DNA of 47,632 bases from Simkaniaceae bacterium (GTDB lineage: Bacteria; Chlamydiota; Chlamydiia; Chlamydiales; JACRBE01): positions 1 through 47,632 of the forward strand of contig JAIPIG010000014.1 in assembly GCA_021734805.1 (NCBI GenBank), written 5' to 3'. The translations under genes and the position numbers were made by a program. The notes beneath the pieces are model-generated. The model ran no database searches and was not told the origin of the DNA. It saw nothing but the letters and a program-made list of their open reading frames with translations. Within the stretch, counting starts at the first letter, position 1. Every line of letters starts with the position of its first letter. Positions 24,248-27,200 of this stretch are shown one piece after another.

Positions 24248-27200
24248 TTATTGGCAACTCTCGCATCCCTCTTCCATCGAGCAGACGGCGCCTTCGCTCA
24301 TTTTAGGAGTTGATCGATCGACTTTGATATTGCTCGAAGCTGAAGAATTTTTCATCCAGCGGGGTTGAAGACCTCTCTTATTAATATCCACCGATGATTT
24401 CTCAATTTGCGTTGCAGCGAGCGCGCGGAGATAATAGGTGGATTTAAGGCCATTTTTCCAAGCGAGGAAATACATCTCATGCATTTTTTTACCGCTTGGT
24501 TCTGAGAGGTATAAGTTAAGGGATTGTCCCATATCAATCCATTTTTGGCGGCGGCCTGCGCATTTGATAATCCAATCGGGATCAATTTCAAATGCCGTGA
24601 GATATTTCATCTTAATATCTTGAGGAATATGGGGGATTTCGCTAAGCGATCCGTCATAGTATTTGAGGTCGTCGAGCATTTCATCATTCCAAAGACCAAT
24701 CTCTTTTAAATCATCAACGAGATAGCGATTTGAAATGGTAAACTCTCCTGAGAGATTTGACTTCACATAGAGGTTTTTATAGTTTGGTTCAATCGATGGA
24801 GAGACTCCAATGATGTTGGCAATTGTTGCAGTAGGGGCAATAGCCATGGTATTGCTATTGCGCATACCATACTTTTTGACGGCTTCTCGCACCTTTGTCC
24901 AGTCTTTGCGCATCGTGCGCTCGACATCGATGGGCGTGCCGCGCTCTTTTTCGAGAAGATCCAGTGTATCGATCGGCAGAATGCCCCGATCCCATTTGGA
25001 TCCTTTATAAGAAGAGTAAGTTCCTCTTTCTTTAGCGAGCTTTGTTGAAGCGAGGATCGCATAATAAGCGATTAGCTCCATGATCTCATCTGCAAAATTA
25101 ATGGCCTCGTGGCTAGCATAAGAGATTTTGCGCATGCAAAGGGCATCTTGGAAGCCCATAATTCCAAGGCCGATGGGGCGGTGTTTTACGTTGGCATTGC
25201 GCGCTTCTTGTGTGGGATAAAAGTTAATGTCGATCACATTATCGAGCATACGAATAGCCACTTCAACGGTTGAAGCGAGTTTTTTTTCATCGATACCCTC
25301 TTTTGTCACATGCTCAACTAGGTTAATTGAGCCGAGATTGCAGACGGCCGTTTCCGTTTCGGATGTGTTAAGAAAAATCTCAGTACATAAGTTAGAGCTG
25401 TTGATTACCCCCATATGATCTTGAGGGGAGCGTACATTAGCGGCATCTTTAAATGTGATCCAAGGATGACCTGTTTCGAAGAGCATGCTGAGCATTTTTC
25501 GCCATAGTGCGACAGCTTCTACTTTTTTAAAGAGTTTTAGCTCACCGCTTTCGACTTGCGCTTCGTACTCGAGATAGCGCTTTTCAAACGCTTCACCATA
25601 AAGACTGTGAAGGTCGGGAACATTGCTCGGGCTAAAGAGCGTCCACGATCCATTCTCTTGAACGCGCTTCATAAAGAGATCGGGGATCCAGTTGGCCGTA
25701 TTCATATCGTGTGTGCGGCGTCTCTCATCTCCCGTATTTTTACGCAGCTCGAGGAAGTCTTCAATATCGAGGTGCCACGTCTCGAGATAAGCGCACATCG
25801 CTCCTTTTCGTTTTCCGCCATTATGAGCAAGGCCTGCTGTGGTCATGTAAGACTCATCACCCTCAACGACGAGGTCACAAACGACAGCTGTTTTTTCTTG
25901 ATCTTCAACTGAAGTGATTCGACTCCAGACGAATCCCGGAGTTGAAAGCCAATTTTGTTTAGTCACAGGTTGACAGCCTACTTTTTCTGCAAGAGATGCA
26001 ACGGCAGGGATACGCAAGTCATAAGAGATTGTGCTCCCCTTAAATGTCGTTGTAGAAGCATCGGACCGACGGGCTTCATGGTCATAAGAGCGCTCTCTTC
26101 GATTGCCTGCAGTGGGAATGCCGAGTCTTAAACATTGATAACGGACACCTTCGATGAGATGCAAAGACGTATTGCAGAAAGTGATCTCTTTACCGCGTGA
26201 GACATTGCCATCCGTTTCTATTAGACCTTGAAGTAGAGCCAGTAGTTGTTGTTTTGGTAAGTGTGCAAATCGAGGGGCAATATATTTGTTGCCCTCATTA
26301 TCATAGAGATCAGCGTGTTCAAAGGGAAGTGTTGGGGCCCCTGACGATACAAATTGACCTGATGTTGCATCTCTGACAACACCACGGCCTGCAGCCCAAT
26401 GGATTTGAATATAAGAATCACCTCGCGCCGTTTCCCAGAAGTGAATGCCATGCTGAGTGAGATATTCTCTGATAAAGTCTAGATGGGCATCACTTTTAGG
26501 GTTACCTGAAACGCCCCACTGGGATCCGCTTTTAGACAAGTGGCCGTCACCGAGTAAAATACCGTAGAGGCGAGCGTCATCTTCAGTGAGTTCAGGAACA
26601 ACAACAACTTCTTTTGGGATAGCTTGAGCGATGTAATCCCCTACTTTTAATTGAGCTGCTTCGACCCAAGTTGGGGATACTTTTCCCTTTTCAATCCACG
26701 CATGAGTGCGAGAAACGGCCTGTTCTTTTGGGACCCCTTGCATTGCATAGAAGGGATGAGCTGTTGTCACGTGAATGGGTTCAAGTGAATGTTTGATATT
26801 AATCGCAATCATTGGATCTTTTTGATTGTAAACAAAGCGATCAGTTACCTCGCGGTATGTCCCGCTAATACCAAGAACGAGATCTCCAATAGCAACATTG
26901 GCGATGGGCTTCACTCCCTGGTTGGTAAAGATTCTCGTATCGGGATTAAAACATTGGTTGACCGCGACGGCCGTATCATTCGCCACTTTGAGGAAAGGAA
27001 TGACGCCCTGGCTTTTGCCATTCGTGCCGTGAATACGAGAGCCGGTTGCCCTCACATTGGTCCAGTCATTGCCGATTCCGCCGGCCCATTTTGAGAGCTG
27101 TGCATCATCGGAAACCGTTTTGAAAATATGGTGAAGATCATCCATCACAGTGAGCAAATAGCATGAGCTGAGCTGAGAGTGGGGTGTTCCCGCATTAAAG

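Follow-up and report, generated by a model that had tools for sequence, protein, structure and literature searches.

A family of inteins followed by glycine in loop 2 of NrdA, with a putative splicing route that uses no +1 side-chain nucleophile

Textbook protein splicing relies on a nucleophilic residue at the +1 position, immediately after the intein. In the nrdA gene of a Simkaniaceae bacterium, which encodes the large subunit of a class I ribonucleotide reductase (RNR), an intein is followed instead by glycine, and this raises the question of how a working enzyme could arise from such a precursor. Here we analysed the 47,632-nucleotide stretch that carries the gene (contig JAIPIG010000014.1; 'the window'), together with relatives of the intein in bacterial genomes and viral contigs. 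Relatives in many bacteria share the +1 glycine, and their sequences suggest that they probably splice by a different and little-studied route. If true, a large natural family without a +1 nucleophile resides in an enzyme on which cells depend, which would mean that such ligation can be efficient; the family would also supply natural sequences for protein ligation that leave behind no Cys, Ser or Thr.

The host gene, the intein and the insertion site

The precursor and its parts are listed below; the fractions refer to 46 relatives found by protein similarity or to a 114-member alignment, both of which are described in the next section.

23182–24216, minus strand: nrdB, RNR small subunit (PF00268, 322.2 bits), 31 bases downstream of nrdA
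24248–28606, minus strand: nrdA, class I RNR large subunit precursor of 1452 amino acids, in one uninterrupted frame
24251–25819, minus strand: C-extein, 523 amino acids, opening with GGKRKGAM, part of loop 2
25817–25819, minus strand: +1 Gly, codon GGC, without a side-chain nucleophile; Gly in 46/46 readable junctions
25820–25825, minus strand: His377-Asn378, the C-terminal cyclisation pair; His in 45/46 and Asn in 46/46 members from protein searches
25820–26953, minus strand: intein, 378 amino acids, a Hint splicing domain with a nested LAGLIDADG endonuclease
25853–25855, minus strand: Glu367; read without gaps, the equivalent block F position holds His in the additional inteins that some of the family's host proteins carry
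25874–25876, minus strand: block F Asp, D360, in 113/113 members that have a residue there (one gap)
25964–26581, minus strand: endonuclease region, residues ~125–330 (the boundary is ours), with PF14528 at residues 236–289
26204–26233, minus strand: LAGLIDADG motif 2, LQGLIETDGN; D248 in 97/114
26540–26569, minus strand: LAGLIDADG motif 1, LYGILLGDGH; D136 in 98/114
26756–26767, minus strand: block B TxxH (T63, H66); T63 in 112/114, H66 in 113/114
26951–26953, minus strand: Cys1, the N-terminal nucleophile, in 46/46 members from protein searches
26954–28606, minus strand: N-extein, 551 amino acids, ending in AVNQ, aligned to the solved NrdA 5im3 through its Q442

The nrdA product matches PF02867 (641.5 bits), the ATP-cone and PF00317 in Pfam, and NF009029/PRK12365 in NCBIfam. 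The intein begins with Cys-Phe-Asn-Pro and terminates in GLAHN, and after the +1 codon (25819–25817) the NrdA reading continues as GGKRKGAMCAYLETWH. Direct reading thus confirms the original prediction that Cys1, TxxH and the terminal His-Asn are intact with Gly after the Asn, and the predicted host remainder of 1074 residues after removal of the 378-amino-acid intein agrees with the frame. For the intein, Pfam placed LAGLIDADG_3 above its cut-off, with Hint_2 and Intein_splicing below theirs; NCBIfam gave no match to the intein alone at E 0.001, and TIGR01445 appeared only below its cut-off. The neighbouring NrdB reads EAIHTHTF, which presumably places Phe at the position of the E. coli radical Tyr, as in the class Ic enzymes of Chlamydia.

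The insertion falls in loop 2. In an alignment with solved enzymes, residues 929 onwards of the precursor correspond to residues 289 onwards of the yeast and human enzymes. We take the junction to fall directly after the residue equivalent to Gln288, ahead of the glycines that follow it, assuming for the human loop, which is one residue longer, an offset of one. The published accounts that we drew on describe loop 2 as joining the specificity site of one subunit to the catalytic site of the next, and yeast loop 2 residues Gln288 and Arg293 as crucial to substrate recognition. The flank had been predicted to be the ordinary conserved NrdA loop, and it is: the sequence QGG(K/R)R, including the Gly at the site, runs uninterrupted through 40/40 NrdA regions without an intein from the window's phylum, 37 of which were found by a motif that itself requires Gly and three of which were read by eye. 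The same uninterrupted regions rule out an intein boundary elsewhere with a nucleophilic +1 residue.

Recurrence of glycine and conservation of the splicing residues

A search by the protein sequence of the intein exerts no selection on the residue that follows it. Strong matches were found in 22/232 genomes of the window's phylum (Chlamydiota), in 22/63 of the order of Thiolinea, in 2/300 of Simplicispira's order and in 2/298 of Actinosynnema's order, the last two samples being even draws from larger orders. The 48 strong matches gave 46 readable C-terminal junctions (L021 and L171 have none), and all 46 read Asn/Gly-Gly (a slash marks the junction). Recurrence of the +1 Gly at the same NrdA site, which had been set as a test, is therefore complete among the readable relatives, and a sequencing error at 25817–25819 is ruled out. 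Genomes with weak matches only (11 of the 13 with matches in Simplicispira's order and 36 of 38 in Actinosynnema's; best E 9.2e-8) were left out. Many of these weak matches fall on the endonuclease part, and the few that were inspected are other inteins.

The spread of the family is wider still. A DNA pattern for HN/GG, which requires Gly and is informative on spread alone, found at least 108 NrdA junctions of the Gly+1 kind among the 110 matches listed from genome contigs (two, L043 and L056, look like chance), with loci in Azotobacter vinelandii, Thiothrix, Thiolinea, Thiorhodococcus, Nocardiopsis and Amycolatopsis, among others. On viral contigs the same pattern found seven stretches, six RNR inteins and one chance match, and a profile search found 17 loci, all of which read HN/GG (17/17); one of the two patterns used in that search required Gly, and L264 (GGRRKGA) was reachable only through the other. 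DNA patterns for HN/C, HN/S (TCN codons only, with AGY left out) and HN/T found 0, 0 and 0 stretches on viral contigs. A first scan of these contigs with the NrdA intein alone confirmed zero relatives; plasmid records gave zero matches to the intein, and phage records gave five, at 24–27% identity. Eleven of the viral loci (L266–L274, L277 and L278) combine the HN/GG intein with a class I NrdA of eukaryote-like type (GGKRKGSFAVYLEPWH and close variants); L266, the sole one of these in which the C-extein was read, has a second intein that begins at an SSNLC site. At two other loci (L009, in genome G156, and L113) the C-extein frame stops 32 codons past the intein; either the gene is broken at this point or the assembly is wrong.

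The +1 Gly goes with the loop 2 site and this intein family, given that the +1 residue is Cys (seven) or Thr (four) in all 11 RNR inteins that were read at other sites. Second inteins elsewhere in the same protein were found in at least 5 of 113 host proteins, many of whose loci are incomplete, and read KN/TEI in four cases and HN/CNLGS in one; six inteins in other RNR genes, five from Simplicispira's order and one from Actinosynnema's, all read HN/C. The four KN/TEI inteins, in the C-exteins of L042, L052, L093 and L112, have the form SSNLC/C...KN/TEI and combine a Cys at their start with a Cys at the apparent block F Asp position, a mixture of class 1 and class 3 features.

Filled and empty nrdA genes coexist within one genus (G117, G120 and G121 versus G115, G116 and G119), which fits homing by the LAGLIDADG endonuclease. 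Intein identity is about equal within Chlamydiota (58.0%) and to other bacteria (55.8%), and extein identity is 80.2% within Chlamydiota versus 60.6% to other bacteria. We also considered recent transfer between phyla and found it unsupported: 18 Chlamydiota inteins group with only two viral ones (FastTree), and their exteins form one clade.

In the protein-search set, Cys1, T63, D360 and N378 are each present in 46/46, and H66 and H377 each in 45/46 (Arg in L024 and Ser in L170, respectively). The larger alignment (113 members and the window) was assembled by requiring Cys1, a final Asn and then GGKR, and most of its rows stem from the HN/GG pattern, so that its 114/114 for Cys1 and Asn holds by construction. 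Position 367 in this alignment is Glu in 94 members, Ala in 6, Pro in 6, Arg in 4, His in 3 and Val in 1. Intein length ranges from 288 to 405 amino acids across the 114, and 20/114 lack one of the two endonuclease motifs with acidic residues, whereas the intein of the window has both. Comparison of endonuclease decay with splicing-residue change in this set (20 versus 2, Fisher p 6e-5) is biased because its members were selected for splicing residues. We therefore repeated it on the 46, in which an acidic residue of an endonuclease motif is lost in 9/46 and a splicing residue is changed in 2/46 (p 0.05, kinship ignored); the sequences thus suggest a contrast between decaying endonucleases and retained splicing residues that is only marginal.

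Nine short members (288–343 residues, L039 left out) retain blocks B, F and G, with the exception of L024, in which the block B His is gone; the endonuclease motif is damaged in eight of the nine and undamaged in L059. L024 (G176), with 296 residues and an eroded endonuclease, is the only member of the 114 with the block B His changed (to Arg), and L170 (G290) is the only one with a penultimate Ser (SN/GG). One viral contig (L039/L276) carries a 308-residue member that has no block F, keeps HN/GG and has probably decayed.

Ratios of dN/dS were 0.02–0.37 over the computable parts of the 25 closest of 45 intein pairs, by which measure the intein is under purifying selection. Separately, we considered whether nrdA is a pseudogene; this is unlikely in view of its open frame and of dN/dS values well under 1 among related pairs.

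Possible routes to a working reductase

In the window genome (95.6% complete), no PF02867 gene other than nrdA was found, and NrdD was not found either. Ten isolate genomes divide evenly: five have a further PF02867 gene and five have the intein-bearing one only. Among the latter, Thiorhodococcus drewsii also has NrdD, which was not found in Thiothrix lacustris, Thiolinea disciformis, Thiothrix eikelboomii or Macromonas bipunctata. Several of the genomes are drafts, in which a gene may have been missed. As no other RNR was found in the window genome and these four cultured isolates, working NrdA would have to come from the intein-bearing gene in each of them.

We consider it reasonably probable that a mobile LAGLIDADG intein that interrupts the Gln-Gly pair of NrdA loop 2 splices without a +1 side-chain nucleophile, by aminolysis with the Gly amine. 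This estimate derives mainly from the 46 unselected members and the missing second RNR; the second RNR gene in five of the ten isolate genomes was counted against it. The conserved residues are the set for thioester formation and Asn cyclisation minus the acceptor side chain. On the aminolytic route proposed here, Cys1, aided by block B, would form a thioester between its thiol and the N-extein; cyclisation of Asn378 would then release the alpha-amine of Gly+1; and this unhindered amine, held in the Hint active site, would attack the thioester to form a native Gln-Gly bond, with no branched intermediate. Glycine offers the least hindered amine for attack on a thioester, and aminolysis of a thioester by a freed amine has been proposed for A-type bacterial intein-like (BIL) domains. 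Ligation, the order of the steps, aminolysis and mobility are all features that we infer from sequence.

Published precedents point both ways. A-type BIL domains also have no acceptor, and some are described as splicing by an alternative mechanism; a figure legend states that an A-type BIL domain can splice completely. Counting against ligation, BIL domains without a +1 nucleophile are described as yielding mostly cleaved products, and another paper states that A-type BIL domains cannot ligate their flanks. The unusual splicing route named in the original prediction gains indirect support from a Gly+1 intein that keeps its splicing residues across many NrdA proteins, in some genomes with no other RNR found. 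The comparison with BIL domains was apt for the chemistry but not for the location, because BIL domains are described, in the sources consulted, from variable regions of non-conserved proteins.

Cleavage alone, through hydrolysis at Cys1 and Asn cyclisation, would give two NrdA chains that would have to assemble into a working enzyme, an outcome that had also been predicted. It would match the mainly cleaving BIL domains without a +1 nucleophile, and a split phage NrdA that retains function is on record in a published account. The cut, however, would open loop 2, which joins the effector and substrate sites and in which the yeast residues reported as crucial to substrate recognition, Gln288 and Arg293, reside, and no other RNR was found in the four cultured isolates; we regard cleavage as possible but unlikely. 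There is a small chance, compatible with aminolytic splicing, that a slow Gly+1 route acts as a conditional switch that keeps NrdA as an inactive precursor until a favourable condition arises; conditional blocking of activity was the third outcome predicted originally. Conditional splicing is reported for other inteins and loop 2 is described as regulatory, but among the cysteines of the intein family only Cys1 reaches 85% conservation, which leaves no family-wide redox pair.

The acyl group could instead pass through a side chain other than that of the +1 residue. A remote nucleophile in the C-extein, such as Cys+9, might accept it and hand it to the Gly amine, and a Cys does occur at +9 (once at +8) in all 113 extracted members besides the window. 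This Cys is a host feature, however, which is also present in 39/40 intein-free genes, and 11 of the 17 viral HN/GG loci read GGKRKGS(F or I)A, without a Cys at +7 to +9, which makes such a relay highly improbable. We likewise give little credence to a side chain within the intein acting in a class 3-like manner. Thr371 (112/114) and Ser368 (103/114) lie near the C terminus and are widely kept, but Asp occupies, in 46/46, the block F position at which class 3 inteins have Cys, Cys1 is itself present in 46/46 and the adjacent Cys359 varies (VCDL, VFDL and VYDL).

Aminolytic splicing by the Gly amine thus remains our preferred reading. More tentatively, a widespread mobile family at a Gly-only site could represent a further mechanistic class, in which obligate Asn cyclisation comes first and Gly aminolysis follows, efficiently enough to supply the sole RNR of a cell, with the block F Glu (in place of His) possibly serving as a base.

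Comparison with known inteins and intein-like domains

There is nothing unusual in the intein fold or in the endonuclease, inteins are common in RNR, and BIL domains provide a precedent for splicing free of a +1 nucleophile. In the literature searched, which leaves many journals outside it, none of the accounts, as far as their accessible text goes, describes a large endonuclease-bearing Gly+1 intein family at one RNR site. Azotobacter vinelandii locus L118 carries a Gly+1 NrdA intein, and we take the InBase RIR1 entry for this species to be labelled as BIL; if that is right, one case was catalogued earlier. Inteins in an aerobic RNR or NrdA have been reported for Methylococcus capsulatus (MCA2543) and Candidatus Thiomargarita nelsonii, and these may belong to the Gly+1 family.

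An AlphaFold2 model of the intein and its flanks, made from an 80-row alignment, had a mean pLDDT of 90.4. Searched against solved structures, its 12 top-ranked matches were all full inteins (Z 20.6–29.4), led by TliVMA (29.4) and PI-PkoII (28.6). At the level of sequence, phmmer with the NrdA intein gave zero matches to the sequences of solved structures at 0.01, and a profile of the intein family gave 11, including gp41-1, PI-PkoII and the BIL domain 2lwy. The latter superposes on the model with Z 18.3 and an rmsd of 1.5 over 129 residues at 26% identity, a match on a par with those of several small inteins.

In class 3 inteins, Cys replaces the block F Asp. Cys1 and D360, each present in 46/46, argue against assignment to class 2 or class 3, both of which are described in the available accounts as being without an N-terminal nucleophile. 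The NrdA intein has the Cys1, TxxH, His-Asn and predicted Hint fold of a canonical class 1 intein and does not have Cys, Ser or Thr at +1. It is like the class 1 LAGLIDADG inteins TliVMA, PI-PkoII and PI-SceI in its Hint domain with a nested endonuclease, Cys1, TxxH, block F Asp and terminal His-Asn, and unlike them in its +1 Gly and in a block F His position that is mostly Glu. The RNR inteins at other sites are also LAGLIDADG-type inteins in RNR large subunits, but end in HN/C (seven) or KN/T (four). With A-type BIL domains (Clostridium thermocellum, 2lwy) it shares a superposing Hint domain and a His-Asn ending without an obligatory +1 nucleophile; those domains, however, are described, in the sources available, as 130–155 amino acids long and located in variable regions, whereas the NrdA intein has 378 amino acids, carries an endonuclease and lies in a conserved loop.
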